In this document: positions 15,141-23,175 of the stretch, one piece after another
How positions within the stretch are numbered: position 1 is the first letter of the stretch
Layout of the letters: the number at the start of each line of letters is the position of its first letter
Source: Pseudolactococcus reticulitermitis
Lineage (GTDB): Bacteria > Bacillota > Bacilli > Lactobacillales > Streptococcaceae
DNA: 41,347 nucleotides
Assembly (NCBI RefSeq): GCF_002260845.1
Contig: NZ_BEDT01000007.1
Span: 1-41,347 of the forward strand
Reading direction: 5' to 3'
Notes under the pieces: model-generated
The model's input: only the letters and a program-made list of their open reading frames with translations
Told to the model about the DNA's origin: nothing
The model's database searches: none
Program-made: the position numbers and the translations under genes

Positions 15141-15395
15141 TTATTGAATTTTATTAACCGTAATGACACGATAGGTATTGGCATTTATCGTGACACTGAT
15201 TTTATGCCTAGTATCGGTAACATAATAATTCTTTCCTACCCGGTTTATCTCATTTTCTATATTTTCGACTAGGTCAAATAGCAGTTTTTCAATTTCTTGT
15301 CTTGACATAGATTGGTTTAACTTTTTATTAATCCTATCATAAACCAAATCAGTATAGCAGATTTTTGCCAAAATAGTTTTTCGTATATGACGCAT
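15141..15395 (-). CDS. DUF3781 domain protein
   Basis: An 84-residue basic protein with the DUF3781 pattern: ICYTDLVYDRINKKLN, then an E-rich helix, then GKNYYVTDT and a C-terminal SVTINANTYRVITVNK. The function of the family is unknown. I chose ATG at 15395 because AAGAGG is 9 nt upstream. A GTG three codons earlier overlaps that site. The gene stands alone, replacing the priA gene usually next to fmt. Confidence 0.75.
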   Translation of the reverse strand: MRHIRKTILAKICYTDLVYDRINKKLNQSMSRQEIEKLLFDLVENIENEINRVGKNYYVTDTRHKISVTINANTYRVITVNKIQ

Positions 15396-15465
15396 TTTGC
15401 GCACCTCTTAATAGTTCCCCATACTTACTGCTTACTATAACAGCAAATCCTGATACTTTTCGGCT

Positions 15466-16409: not shown

Positions 16410-16826
16410 TTACCAACCATCTAAAAAAGCAAATACACAGATGATAATTAAAGGCAATGCTAAAATCAGGGCAATGACAACATTTCGTTTCCAATGCGTC
16501 GCATCAGGGATAACCCGTTTAACCTCTGAAATTTTCGCCACACTGTTTTGCCAGAGTTCTTCCCTTGTATACCGATCTTTTCCATTGACCATGACTGTCC
16601 CATCATCTTGGATGTCAAACTCATTACCTAAAAAAGTAATCGTCGGTGACACAGCAAAGGTTCTACGTGTCCCTTTGGCCACGGTTTCATCTCCAGCCAA
16701 AGCATTTTCGTATTGCTGTATAAAATGAGAGGGCAGATAGCGCCGTTCGCCATTATCAAAATCAAGCATGATAAAATTGTTAGGCAACATCGCAGCTTTT
16801 TTAACTTTAGGGGTTTCTTCGCTCAT
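16410..16826 (-). CDS. Unknown membrane-anchored protein
   Basis: A 138-residue protein that I do not recognise. A polar N-terminal domain (1-105) is followed by one strong hydrophobic helix (about 113-135) ending in FLDGW, so the bulk probably faces the cytoplasm as a tail-anchored protein. AGGAG lies 8 nt before the ATG. Upstream are a promoter and a cre-like palindrome, so it may be catabolite-controlled. A stop-free stretch without a start codon overlaps its start by ATGA. Confidence 0.7.
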   Translation of the reverse strand: MSEETPKVKKAAMLPNNFIMLDFDNGERRYLPSHFIQQYENALAGDETVAKGTRRTFAVSPTITFLGNEFDIQDDGTVMVNGKDRYTREELWQNSVAKISEVKRVIPDATHWKRNVVIALILALPLIIICVFAFLDGW

Positions 16827-17042: not shown

Positions 17043-17300
17043 CTATCCCAATAATCTCTCAAAAGAGACCTGGAGTATTTCCCGTAACCGCACCACTGTC
17101 TCAATATCCGGCTCGCGCACCCCTTTTTCCCATTGACTCACCGCTTGTTTGCTGACAAAGAGAGCTTGAGCTAACATCGTTTGAGTCATCTGGTGTTCAA
17201 GTCGCGCTTGTTTAATGTTATCCCCTAGCGTGCCACCTTTGATTACCGCCAAATCCCTCTCGTTTAATTGTCGACATATCACTACGCTTTTAGTGGTCAT
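17043..17300 (-). CDS. XRE-family regulator with an N-terminal double-glycine leader
   Basis: An 85-residue protein. Residues 25-84 form a helix-turn-helix of the XRE type (LGDNIKQARLEHQMTQ, then VSKQAVSQWEKGVREP). Residues 1-23 read like a class II bacteriocin leader ending IKGG: relative to the cut, L-12, L-7, I-4, G-2 and G-1 are all in place. AAGGAGG 5 nt before the ATG at 17300 shows that this leader is truly translated with the regulator. It sits after a two-peptide bacteriocin cluster, so it probably regulates that cluster. I know of no standard family with this architecture. Confidence 0.88.
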   Translation of the reverse strand: MTTKSVVICRQLNERDLAVIKGGTLGDNIKQARLEHQMTQTMLAQALFVSKQAVSQWEKGVREPDIETVVRLREILQVSFERLLG

Positions 17301-17340: not shown

Positions 17341-17368
17341 GAAAAAAACATCTTTTTTCCCAAGATGT
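17341..17368 (-). terminator. Terminator/attenuator before the XRE gene
   Basis: Minus strand ACATCTT/AAGATGT with an eight-base loop is followed by seven T, and ends about 45 nt before the XRE start. Any transcript starting further upstream must pass it. Confidence 0.75.
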
Positions 17369-17385
17369 CATAAACGGTCGAAAAT

Positions 17386-17464
17386 ATGCCACGAATAACC
17401 CAAAAATTGTATCAATGACCTAAAATGCCACGAACGACATGGCACATTTTTCATTTTGTATCAA
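17386..17464. repeat. Imperfect tandem repeats before the XRE gene
   Basis: ATGCCACGAA occurs at 17386-17395 and 17425-17434, and TTGTATCAA at 17407-17415 and 17456-17464, in the same order. The second unit also forms a TGCCA...TGGCA dyad. They lie between two terminators and could be operator sites for the XRE protein. Confidence 0.6.
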
Positions 17465-17601: not shown

Positions 17602-17826
17602 TTACGTGAGGATAATCGCAGATATTCGCCACTCAGGTAGTAGTAATTGTTGTTTTTGCTTAGCAATTATCACATAATTGTCCCCAACCTCAACTATATC
17701 ATTTGAACTATAGGGATTATCAGAAATAAAATACTCTCTCCAATTTTGTGCGGTTGAAACTTGTATGACCAGTTTAAATTCTTTTTTCTCTGATAAAAGT
17801 TGCTGAATTTTTTGCATCAACATCAT
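17602..17826 (-). CDS. Small soluble protein of the bacteriocin cluster
   Basis: A 74-residue protein not recognised. It begins with an amphipathic helix (MQKIQQLLSEKKEF) and continues as an alternating, beta-rich pattern ending PEWRISAIIL. No signal or membrane segment is present. I start at ATG 17826, with GGAAAGGG upstream, two bases after the preceding stop. A longer frame overlaps the upstream gene and lacks a ribosome site. It is the last gene of the cluster and may be an accessory or immunity factor; this is inference from position. Confidence 0.6.
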   Translation of the reverse strand: MMLMQKIQQLLSEKKEFKLVIQVSTAQNWREYFISDNPYSSNDIVEVGDNYVIIAKQKQQLLLPEWRISAIILT

Positions 17827-17827
17827 A

Positions 17828-18004
17828 TTAGCTGCCCTTTCCTTGTTCAAAAAACAGTGAAATCCCACAGGCAATACCGATAATAACAGGCAAATGAAGT
17901 GGTTGCTGAAAAGCGATAAGTGTCACGATTTCAACCCCTAACATCAGCGCCGTTAAGATAGCAATCGTTCCCTGAATAAAATTGACTCTATTTCTTCTTA
18001 GCAT
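17828..18004 (-). CDS. Two-helix membrane protein, possible immunity protein
   Basis: A 58-residue protein with a basic N-terminus (MLRRNRVN) and two hydrophobic helices (about 10-33 and 40-55). Small membrane proteins just after bacteriocin structural genes often give self-immunity. The start overlaps the end of the second peptide gene by 17 nt. An alternative ATG four codons earlier (18016) is possible, and neither has a strong ribosome site, which fits translational coupling. Confidence 0.6.
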   Translation of the reverse strand: MLRRNRVNFIQGTIAILTALMLGVEIVTLIAFQQPLHLPVIIGIACGISLFFEQGKGS

Positions 18005-18164
18005 TCGAACACCCATTCACGGTACCCAATACAAAACCAACCACTATAATGCCGCCAATGACAACAAGCGGGGCAACGCCTCCAGTAACTTCCTGCATAT
18101 CACCTTCTGATAAGTCGCGAAAACCTGATAACTGATTTAATTCTAAAATTGTTTGTTTTTTCAT
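17988..18164 (-). CDS. Class IIb bacteriocin peptide B precursor
   Basis: A 58-residue precursor. The leader ends MQEVTGG at residue 29, with F-15, L-12, M-7, V-4, G-2 and G-1 in place. The 29-residue core is very hydrophobic, contains GFVLG (a GxxxG helix-packing motif), one Cys and a KKK tail. Together with the upstream peptide this fits a two-peptide pore-forming bacteriocin. GAGG lies 7 nt before the ATG. No homologue is recognised with certainty. Confidence 0.75.
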   Translation of the reverse strand: MKKQTILELNQLSGFRDLSEGDMQEVTGGVAPLVVIGGIIVVGFVLGTVNGCSNAKKK

Positions 18165-18197: not shown

Positions 18198-18380
18198 TTA
18201 TTTAAAAACATTGCCGATGAAGCTGCCAAAGGCATAACCAGCGCCATAAGCAATACCTACGGCTTTTATGACATGTCCAACATGGACTAGACCACCCTCA
18301 ATCACCATCATTTCTTTTTCAGTAAGTGTTGAAAATTGATCTAATGCGACAACTTGTTGTAACGAATTTTTTTCTACCAT
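18198..18380 (-). CDS. Class IIb bacteriocin peptide A precursor
   Basis: A 60-residue precursor with a 30-residue leader ending MVIEGG (F-15, L-12, M-7, E-8, I-4, G-2, G-1). The 30-residue core has a His-containing start and two GxxxG motifs (GIAYG and GSFIG) and ends NVFK. That is typical for peptides that pair as transmembrane helices. I chose ATG at 18380, preceded by AAAGGA at 7 nt; a TTG five codons earlier contains that site. First gene of the operon; no exporter is nearby. Confidence 0.8.
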   Translation of the reverse strand: MVEKNSLQQVVALDQFSTLTEKEMMVIEGGLVHVGHVIKAVGIAYGAGYAFGSFIGNVFK

Positions 18381-18461: not shown

Positions 18462-18490
18462 AGCATATCATGACTCATTGCGTCTGTAAA
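18462..18490 (-). promoter_or_regulatory. Promoter of the bacteriocin operon
   Basis: Minus strand -35 TTTACA (18485-18490), 17 nt spacer, -10 TATGCT (18462-18467) extended by TGA. Confidence 0.6.
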
Positions 18491-18620
18491 TCAACATTCT
18501 GTTGACTTTTGCCTCCCCGTGATAAGTATATTTTATCTACACCGCTGAAACTCCTTATATCACAAGGCATTGCTTGCCTAGATACAACAGAATACTAACG
18601 AGTTAACATTCTGTTGACTT
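18491..18620. repeat. AACAGAAT operator boxes upstream of the bacteriocin promoter
   Basis: Box 1, TCAACATTCTGTTGA (18491-18505), is a 6-bp dyad abutting the -35. Box 2 repeats it nearly exactly (18603-18617, TTAACATTCTGTTGA) and pairs with an inverted CAACAGAAT just before it, forming a 32-bp dyad with inner TAAC/GTTA. The spacing to the promoter suggests an activator site. Confidence 0.6.
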
Positions 18621-21011: not shown

Positions 21012-22040
21012 TTAATTCAAAGTCTCATAGATTTCAGTCACTAACGCTTCTGTTTTATCCCAACCGAGACAGGGATCTGTGATGGATTGTCCAAAGACTT
21101 CTGGCGCATTTTGGCGACCATCTTCTAGGTAAGATTCAATCATAAACCCACGTACTGTCCGCTTGATTTGTTCATTCCAATCACGATTAATCAAGGTTTG
21201 ACGCACGATACGAATTTGCTCCAAGAACTGTTTCCCCGAATTATCATGGTTTGTATCAACCATGATAAAAGGATTTTTAAGCCCCAATTTATCATAGGTA
21301 GCGATGGCTTTAAGCAAATTATCGTAATAGTAATTGGGTTCGTTTTCGCCGTGTTCATTGGTCGCACCACGTAAAATCACATGAGCTAGAGGATTACCAT
21401 CTGTATCAACTTCCGCATTGCCAAACAAGAAATTTTGCTTATTTTGTGCCGCATGGATGGCATTGAACATCACACTCAAGTTACCAGATGTTGGATTTTT
21501 CATGCCCGTTGGCGCATCAATACCTGAGGCGACAAAACGGTGCTCTTGATCCTCAACTGACCGCGCCCCAATCGCATGGTAGCTGACCAAATCGTCAACC
21601 ATCCGCAGATTAGACGGGTAGAGCATCTCGTCAGCAGTCGTCAGACCAGTCTGCGTGATGACTTTATAATGTAACTCACGAACAGCCTGAATGCCATTGA
21701 TGAGATCAGGTAATTTTGACGTATCTGGCTGATGCATCAACCCCTTATAGCCATCACCATTGGTCCGTGGCTTCGCGGTATAAACACGCATGACCATGAA
21801 GACCTTGTCCTTAACTTTTTCTTGCAATTTTGCCAAGCGATGCGCATATTCCAAGACTGCCGCTTCATTGTCAGATGAACAGGGACCAATGACAAGCAAG
21901 ATCCGATCATCTTCGCCTTTGATAATGCGCTCTAATTCCGCATCACGCGCTTGTTTTTTGGTCAAAATATCGCCCTCTAGTTTGGCGTGTGATTTAACTG
22001 ATGCGATATCAATCGTCGCACCCTTTTGATGAATTCCCAT
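21012..22040 (-). CDS. DAHP synthase, class I (copy 1)
   Basis: 3-deoxy-7-phosphoheptulonate synthase condenses PEP and erythrose 4-phosphate, the first step to aromatic amino acids. 342 residues. Motifs are LLVIGPCSSDNEAA (metal Cys), MRVYTAKPRTNGDGYKGL, GARSVEDQEHR and DTNHDNSGK. It is a close paralogue of the gene just upstream. Neighbouring DAHP synthases beside secA are also known in streptococci and probably differ in feedback inhibition, though I cannot tell which ligand each senses. AGAGGGAG precedes the ATG. Confidence 0.93.
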   Translation of the reverse strand: MGIHQKGATIDIASVKSHAKLEGDILTKKQARDAELERIIKGEDDRILLVIGPCSSDNEAAVLEYAHRLAKLQEKVKDKVFMVMRVYTAKPRTNGDGYKGLMHQPDTSKLPDLINGIQAVRELHYKVITQTGLTTADEMLYPSNLRMVDDLVSYHAIGARSVEDQEHRFVASGIDAPTGMKNPTSGNLSVMFNAIHAAQNKQNFLFGNAEVDTDGNPLAHVILRGATNEHGENEPNYYYDNLLKAIATYDKLGLKNPFIMVDTNHDNSGKQFLEQIRIVRQTLINRDWNEQIKRTVRGFMIESYLEDGRQNAPEVFGQSITDPCLGWDKTEALVTEIYETLN

Positions 22041-22149: not shown

Positions 22150-23175
22150 TTAAAGTTGTTCATAAATCTCGTTAATTAAGTTTTCTGTTTTATCCCAGCC
22201 AAGGCATGGGTCAGTAATTGATTTTCCGAAAACGATTGGTTCGTCCTGACGACCATCTTCCAGATAAGACTCAATCATGAAACCACGGACATATTTTTTA
22301 ATCAGTGGATTCCATTGCCGATTAATCAAAGTTTGGCGGACAATTCGAATTTGTTCCAAATACCGTTTACCTGAATTATCATGGTTGGTATCAATCATGA
22401 TAAATGGATTTTCCAGACCCATTTTTTCATAGGTCGCAATCGCATCTAACAAATCATCTGTGTAGAAGTTAGGAATATTTTTCCCATATTCATTCAAGGC
22501 ACCACGTAAAATCGCATGCGCCAAAGGATTGCCCTCAGTTTCAACTTCCGCTCGATTAAAGAGGAAGTTTTGTGGTGCCTGTGCAGCATAAATCCCATTA
22601 AACATGATATTCAGATTTCCCGATGTTGGATTTTTCAAACCAACTGGTACGTCAATCCCAGAGGCGACAAAACGGTGCTGTTGATTTTCAACAGAACGCG
22701 CCCCAACTGCGATATAGCTGACCAAATCATCAACAATTCTCAGGTTTTCTGGATAAAGCATTTCATCGGCTGTCGTTAAACCAGTCTCAGTAATGACTTT
22801 ATAATGCAATTCACGCACAGCCTTAATCCCATTTAAAAGATTAGGTTGTGCTGTTGCATCTGGCTGATGAATCAAGCCTTTATAGCCATCGCCATTGGTC
22901 CGTGGTTTTGCCGTATAAACACGCATGACCATGAAGATTTTATCTTTGACCGTTTCTTGCAATTTAGCCAAACGACGGGCGTATTCAAGTGCCGCTGCTT
23001 CATTATCAGACGAGCAAGGGCCAATCACTAACAAAACACGCTCATCTTCACCTTTGATAATGGCTTCCAACTCACGATCACGGGCTTCTTTCAAAGCTTT
23101 AGTTGCCTCTGAAAGTTTGCCTAATTCTTTGATTTCTGCTATCTCTAGCTTTTTAGAAATTTCTTTAAATGTCAT
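22150..23175 (-). CDS. DAHP synthase, class I (copy 2)
   Basis: 341 residues, same reaction and motifs as its neighbour: LLVIGPCSSDNEAA, MRVYTAKPRTNGDGYKGL, GARSVENQQHR and DTNHDNSGK. The N-terminal 30 residues (FKEISKKLEIAEIKELGKLSEATKALK split over the first helices) differ most from copy 1. That region often carries the allosteric site, so the two copies may respond to different aromatic amino acids (inference). The ribosome site (TTGAAAG) is weak. It lies 114 nt after secA. Confidence 0.92.
   Translation of the reverse strand: MTFKEISKKLEIAEIKELGKLSEATKALKEARDRELEAIIKGEDERVLLVIGPCSSDNEAAALEYARRLAKLQETVKDKIFMVMRVYTAKPRTNGDGYKGLIHQPDATAQPNLLNGIKAVRELHYKVITETGLTTADEMLYPENLRIVDDLVSYIAVGARSVENQQHRFVASGIDVPVGLKNPTSGNLNIMFNGIYAAQAPQNFLFNRAEVETEGNPLAHAILRGALNEYGKNIPNFYTDDLLDAIATYEKMGLENPFIMIDTNHDNSGKRYLEQIRIVRQTLINRQWNPLIKKYVRGFMIESYLEDGRQDEPIVFGKSITDPCLGWDKTENLINEIYEQL

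Follow-up and report, generated by a model that had tools for sequence, protein, structure and literature searches.

Why should a small DNA-binding protein begin with a double-glycine leader of the kind found on class II bacteriocins? One gene in the 41,347-nucleotide stretch of Pseudolactococcus reticulitermitis DNA analysed here (contig NZ_BEDT01000007.1; the window) raises this question, and we refer to its product and the relatives of that product as GG-XRE.

17043..17300, minus strand: GG-XRE regulator, 85 aa, leader at residues 1-23 and XRE domain at residues 24-85
17232..17300, minus strand: codons of the double-glycine leader (residues 1-23), placed from the sequence

The first-pass annotation had described a leader followed at once by a helix-turn-helix, and the reading frame bears this out: the leader, MTTKSVVICRQLNERDLAVIKGG, carries L-12, L-7, I-4, G-2 and G-1, and a complete XRE domain begins directly past the GG, with Pfam HTH_3 matching residues 29-82 at 56.4 bits against a cut-off of 23. 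Position -15 is Cys, a weak match to the PCAT substrate pattern, and no Pfam or NCBIfam leader model matches the window protein at E values up to 1. The gene starts with ATG at 17300, preceded by AAGGAGG at a 5-nt spacer; the next in-frame ATG, GTG or TTG sits 14 codons past the GG, within the XRE domain, so the leader is part of the protein, as had been claimed. Start codons lie 5-7 codons past the GG in the relatives L272, L310 and L286, where an internal start may be possible. AF2 models of seven relatives place a confident HTH with five predicted helices at residues 25-84, and a disordered or flexible leader (residues 1-21, pLDDT <50) with a short helix at 14-18. That short helix would suit a structural element for dimerisation whose likeness to PCAT leaders arose by convergence, but such an element fits poorly with the predicted disorder, leaves the GG at -2/-1 and the C39 peptidase neighbourhood described below unexplained, and seems to us very improbable.

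Relatives were sought by profile searches of 335 family genomes, 395 genomes from the order, 19 of genus g58 and 141 of family f9, together with one contig scan (best 80 of 475 matches) and plasmid searches, so that the census gives at least the following members, among the matches listed. Within Pseudolactococcus, intact leader-bearing genes occur in 3 of 12 genomes, namely that of the window, P. laudensis (G005, 81%) and G001 (two copies, 47% and 44%); the copy in G002 is broken. Further members are found in L067, G022 (L248), G586 (L272, with an identical protein in G661), G672, G513, G663, G662, G733, G675, G655 and G465, and on plasmids of Latilactobacillus curvatus (AP018701.1) and Leuconostoc mesenteroides (NZ_CP088903.1). 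The module also forms the end of a 506-aa SunS-like glycosyltransferase in the window genome (G000) and in G005.

L035 7273-8793: glycosyltransferase-GG-XRE fusion, 506 aa, GG motif and XRE at the C-terminus
L034 7526-9043: glycosyltransferase-GG-XRE fusion, 506 aa, GG motif and XRE at the C-terminus

In these fusions the leader lies at residue ~424-443 of 506, other glycosyltransferase relatives align only to residue 428, and a 50-aa GG peptide is encoded upstream of the L035 fusion gene. The L. cremoris GG-XRE gene (L067 9005-9319) and the L035 fusion both sit in what we take to be an arg-rnpA-yidC-jag neighbourhood. A divergent XRE gene of ~240 aa adjoins the GG-XRE gene in L283, L284, L280, L281 and L286, and at L310 5556-5828 an XRE gene directly past an HlyD-type gene has a degenerate leader that has lost the GG. 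Our aligned set comprises 19 proteins from several genera, two of them the C-terminal glycosyltransferase modules; G665 and G666 were recognised later and stand outside it. The first-pass annotation had called a DNA-binding protein with an export leader a non-standard architecture; NCBIfam shows no family for it (judged with the window protein and ten relatives), and with 19 such proteins aligned it is not unique. The accessible portions of the open-access literature, including PMC4517551, PMC10059821, PMC6363468 and PMC10986499, describe no XRE regulator with a GG leader, which is weak evidence.

Positions -12, -7 and -4 are V, I, L, M, F, Y or W in all 19 proteins, -15 is strongly hydrophobic in 17 (the exceptions being Cys in the window and Lys in L272), and GG stands at -2/-1 in 18, with AG in L290; these counts arise partly by construction, because -4 and -7 (though not -12 and -15) anchored the alignment and the profiles that found later members included the leader. 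The columns proposed for checking in Lactobacillales relatives are kept in these proteins. According to the available sections of two studies, the residues at -15, -12, -7 and -4 direct secretion via ComAB/BlpAB (PMC7018657), and those at -7 and -12 make up a docking knot (PMC6959990). L248 exceeds the curated cut-offs for ComC (22.1 over 20.4), bacteriocin_sig (22 over 15.7) and HTH_3; bacteriocin_sig matched none of nine other members at E values up to 0.01. Between the window and P. laudensis leaders, 10 non-synonymous and 8 synonymous codon changes among 23 codons leave the residues at -12, -7, -4, -2 and -1 identical, with Cys versus Phe at -15. On this sequence evidence, the leader is a conserved PCAT-type module.

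Chance pairing of such a motif with an XRE core appears rare. It occurred just upstream of the core in 13 of 101 distinct XRE-like ORFs, selected by rule from the fetched loci of Streptococcaceae and other Lactobacillales; all 13 are GG-XRE members and none of the 88 others has it, a split that is partly definitional as the leader defines membership, and the core rule misses some cores, including those of members in L280 and L281. Among 124 HTH contexts in the loci from the order search and the contig scan, the two with the motif are both GG-XRE members. Many apparent GG matches before XRE domains in controls proved to be AAGGAGG ribosome sites read in frame, an artefact that does not apply to the window because no start codon lies closely past its GG, and in the plasmid matches H1 and H22 the apparent leader overlap lay upstream of the annotated start.

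If the leader is a docking module, its partner might be encoded nearby. Within 6 kb of GG-XRE we find C39 in 9 of 19 loci, HlyD in 7 and a GG-peptide ORF in 14, as against 0, 0 and 2 around 78 ordinary XRE loci, mostly from Clostridia. Within 1.5 kb the figures are 4, 3 and 13 of 19, compared with 3, 0 and 0 in 129 other loci from the family, order and later profile searches, where the three C39 controls themselves hold GG-XRE (the L286 neighbour gene and two members recognised later). Ten of the 19 loci, the window among them, have no C39 within 6 kb, and at L067, L272 and L034 the rule used picked up none of the three kinds of gene (C39, HlyD, GG peptide). The arrangement is often close: in P. 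laudensis and G001 the GG-XRE gene lies directly upstream of a ComA-like exporter gene (819 bits in P. laudensis), the two being same-strand neighbours in L031 and L032, and HlyD, kinase and LytTR regulator genes lie further on; G022 and the Leuconostoc plasmid have the GG-XRE gene downstream of an HlyD-type gene, and in L248 exporter, accessory and GG-XRE genes are consecutive.

The clearest cases come from three species of one genus (G662, G665 and G666), in which the GG-XRE gene is followed by an intact C39 protein of 146-159 aa that keeps the catalytic Cys, His and Asp and has no transporter part (Pfam C39, 117.7 bits in L286). Crude pN/pS values for the three pairs are about 0.31, 0.33 and 0.26 for C39 and about 0.14, 0.12 and 0.11 for GG-XRE. 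We regard these pairs as the strongest hint of a joint peptidase-regulator function, and together with the C39 genes near 9 of 19 relatives they uphold, at the level of gene neighbourhood, the suggested link to an exporter peptidase.

Many of the exporters are damaged. Of nine C39 neighbours, five are interrupted or truncated exporters (L031 has one stop, L032 keeps 569 of 714 residues, L285 aligns over 64 residues, and the gene spans three frames in L290 and two in L310), three are intact over nearly full length (L248, L289 and G465, the last in L287/L313), and one is the stand-alone protein of L286. The regulator ORF stays open beside all five damaged exporters, and L031, L032, L290 and L310 retain an open frame for the N-terminal C39 part; G002 has neither exporter nor regulator intact, and nowhere in Pseudolactococcus does an intact exporter lie directly beside an intact GG-XRE gene. 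In several loci the regulators therefore outlive the transport function, so either another exporter serves them or the loci are decaying.

Decay is the core of one alternative raised in the first-pass annotation, an accidental join of a bacteriocin leader to an XRE gene, carried without function in decaying clusters. The broken exporters, the broken G002 copy and the window's lack of an exporter alongside all suit it. It is disfavoured by leader columns kept in 19 proteins from several genera and by the low pN/pS of the stand-alone pairs. In a short, low-resolution HTH tree, moreover, GG-XREs split into five clades when placed with 70 controls, which leaves room for more than one origin of the join; we judge this alternative improbable. 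A second alternative, that the leader lets GG-XRE occupy the peptidase as a decoy or plug, throttling or timing export with DNA binding secondary, draws on the strength of the leader and the place beside the exporter gene. We think it similarly doubtful, given that every member scanned has an HTH domain, candidate sites accompany the gene in Pseudolactococcus, and the regulator is intact beside some broken exporters.

The window locus itself has bacteriocin genes. The two bacteriocin peptides placed next door by the first-pass annotation are there, both with GG leaders, and further genes accompany them:

18198..18380, minus strand: GG bacteriocin peptide A (lactobin A/cerein 7B family; TIGR03949 32.4 bits, cut-off 21.5; TIGR01847 18.1, cut-off 15.7)
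17988..18164, minus strand: GG bacteriocin peptide B (TIGR03949 25.5 bits, cut-off 21.5)
17828..18016, minus strand: hydrophobic 62-aa protein, a putative immunity protein (59% to a 56-aa L207 protein; no Pfam family)
17602..17826, minus strand: 74-aa protein of unassigned family beside the bacteriocin genes (counterparts in L207, 70%, and L033, 43%)
16410..16826, minus strand: 138-aa protein with a counterpart, 80% identical, in the P. laudensis exporter cluster

The neighbour scan ruled out an exporter next door: no C39 or exporter gene, and no adjacent dedicated peptidase gene, lies within 6 kb of the window GG-XRE. Relative to the P. laudensis locus, the window lacks the exporter, accessory, pheromone-like, kinase and regulator genes; the 138-aa gene, whose P. 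laudensis counterpart is downstream of an HlyD-type gene, remains. Another such gene set is present in the window genome at G000:C3; its exporter shares 77% identity with the P. laudensis one and could serve the window GG-XRE. The second bacteriocin-export cluster of this genome, L206 2738-10663, comprises an exporter, an HlyD gene, a kinase, a response regulator and GG peptides, and lacks GG-XRE. Elsewhere in the window, the adjacent genes at 21012-22040 and 22150-23175 are 74% identical to each other and presumably DAHP-synthase-like, and the DUF3781 protein at 15141-15404 (70.4 bits) adjoins a gene that we take to be radical-SAM activating-enzyme-like.

What GG-XRE might regulate, and what regulates it, can be approached through three upstream features:

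17362..17437, minus strand: four direct repeats, 19-21 bp apart, ahead of the GG-XRE gene and probably boxes for a LytTR response regulator
18462..18490, minus strand: promoter-like site of the bacteriocin genes, TTTACA-17 nt-TATGCT with TG before the second hexamer (consensus scan)
18485..18505, minus strand: promoter element AACANANNGTTGNNTTACA with palindrome TCAACAGAATGTTGA (18491-18505), candidate GG-XRE site

A LytTR box matrix trained solely on loci without GG-XRE (L206 and L207) finds one strong four-box array each in the window, L031, L032, L033 and L036, with scores of 54.8, 49.8, 26.0, 28.0 and 54.6 against next-best scores of 4.9, 12.9, 3.2, 4.4 and 8.5 in the same order. In all five the array lies ahead of the GG-XRE gene or what remains of it; the L206 and L207 arrays stand in front of bacteriocin genes, GG-peptide genes, exporter genes and a few others. 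For comparison, the LytTR regulators PlnC and PlnD bind tandem repeats of 9 bp spaced by 12 bp, as described in the accessible part of PMC2714321. The repeats at 17386-17464, offered by the first-pass annotation as a target of the regulator, were rejected as an XRE operator on the ground that the same LytTR-like boxes occur in loci without GG-XRE, and they are probably not its own site.

Of the other proposed target, 18491-18620, the part that stands as the more likely candidate site is the palindrome at 18491-18505, which abuts the -35 box. In the window's 2.17-Mb genome an exact match to AACANANNGTTGNNTTACA occurs at this place only, and the five exact matches across three genomes all lie at GG-XRE loci, the pattern having been derived from those five promoters in three related genomes. 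Allowing one mismatch adds 12 further places, one of them upstream of a G001 GG-XRE gene; a reversed control pattern gave 0, 1 and 2 matches. In the window alone the longer element, at up to two mismatches, has one match against 0.55 expected, within chance, and its weight lies in the whole-genome search and not in the window count. Shorter patterns were set aside: CAACANNNTGTTG alone is unspecific (5 matches in G000 and 11 each in G001 and G005) and at one mismatch its count in the window does not exceed that in shuffles, and the palindrome AAAGTTGNNCAACTTT recurs with at most one mismatch solely at two G001 loci of ten scanned. No palindrome shared upstream of GG-peptide and GG-XRE genes was found in ten other loci. 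L033 has a comparable bacteriocin promoter-like site (TTTACA-17-TAATAT, TG before the second hexamer), and the consensus scan called none in L032. P. laudensis retains the element (L031 8943-8961), with no intact bacteriocin gene called beside it. In the bacteriocin promoters of GG-XRE loci the palindrome abuts the -35 box in place of response-regulator boxes; its centre lies near -42 by our estimate, and activation is suggested because this is a usual activator position.

Taken together, the conserved tag and the exporter or peptidase neighbours suggest that toxin production may be coupled to the cell's export machine. We lean somewhat, and not strongly, towards the view that GG-XRE is a family of small XRE regulators with a PCAT-type double-glycine leader as input domain. 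With the same modest preference we see it as a relay regulator that takes its activity state from a C39 peptidase, which would dock it and probably cut it; the broken neighbouring exporters slightly reduce our confidence here. They also lower the probability of a broader proposition, in which these are one-component transcription factors switched by an exporter-type peptidase, the leader being re-used as a protease-docking sensor, toxin genes following exporter state and some lineages using a stand-alone C39 protease/regulator switch with no exporter, and which we place a little short of an even chance. Mechanistically, a C39 peptidase would dock the leader and cut past the GG, so that the state of GG-XRE would report whether a peptidase or exporter is present and free. 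In Pseudolactococcus a response regulator would turn on the GG-XRE(-exporter) genes, GG-XRE would act on the bacteriocin promoters through the palindrome that borders their -35 box, and processing would set its activity, whereby the exporter would license bacteriocin synthesis. Two signs are conceivable: the cut form may activate, or cutting or export may remove a repressor. In the glycosyltransferase fusions the cut would release the XRE domain from the enzyme, which is why we favour release over export. Simple cytosolic release by a full exporter is disfavoured because, in PCAT1, cleavage is strictly coupled to translocation, as stated in the available text of PMC6959990. A folded HTH might hinder such transport-coupled cleavage.

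The export version of this logic deserves separate weight. Here GG-XRE would repress the bacteriocin genes until an exporter with free capacity cuts and secretes it, with FlgM as the model. The leader is complete, GG-XRE and exporter genes adjoin in L031 and L032 and stand in a row with the accessory gene in L248, and several repressors figure among the nearest solved HTHs (ImmR at the top, P22 C2 and CylR2 lower), all of which would suit removal by export. Against it weigh the three stand-alone C39 pairs with no exporter part, the five broken exporters, the fusion leaders of L034 and L035, ill-suited to export at ~424-443 of 506, and a palindrome at the estimated activator position, and we consider it unlikely. 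We therefore keep, as the preferred reading, a leader that works as an input docked and probably cut by a C39 peptidase.

That producers avoid making bacteriocin they cannot export is usually ascribed to shared quorum control. If our preferred reading is true, there would be direct feedback from the export machine to transcription, with the exporter peptidase binding the regulator itself or using it as a substrate. GG-XRE would be a compact and testable protease switch; leader-plus-HTH ORFs would be flagged as regulators and not as bacteriocins, and the gene could be used as a marker for bacteriocin loci.

Known systems share parts of this design. Like PCAT substrates (class II bacteriocins and the ComC/BlpC pheromones), GG-XRE has hydrophobic residues at -15, -12, -7 and -4 and a GG; unlike them, its cargo is a DNA-binding domain and not a secreted peptide, and in two members the leader is mid-protein, which argues against cargo export for those two (L034 and L035). 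ImmR/ImmA of ICEBs1 likewise combines a small XRE regulator with a dedicated peptidase gene, and the ImmR DNA-binding domain (7t8i) is the best solved-structure match of our family profile (E 2.2e-15). ImmA inactivates ImmR via cleavage (accessible text of PMC8960796), but it is a metallopeptidase cutting at F95-M96, whereas the candidate for GG-XRE is a bacteriocin-export-type C39 cysteine peptidase with a predicted site at the end of the N-terminal leader; the adjacent gene in L280, L281 and L286 encodes C39 and not an ImmA-type enzyme. HetC of Nostoc offers a PCAT in differentiation, for which its peptidase activity is required, and differs in that, according to the authors in the part of the paper available, no double-glycine-leader protein gene lies near hetC (PMC10986499). 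CylR2-type minimal XRE regulators of bacteriocin operons share the bare XRE domain of ~66 aa, and CylR2 chains (named cytolysin repressor 2 or cytolysin regulator 2) match the GG-XRE profile. To our knowledge CylR2 has no leader. FlgM, an anti-sigma factor of the flagellar system unrelated to GG-XRE, would share with it the logic of a regulator level that tracks exporter state.
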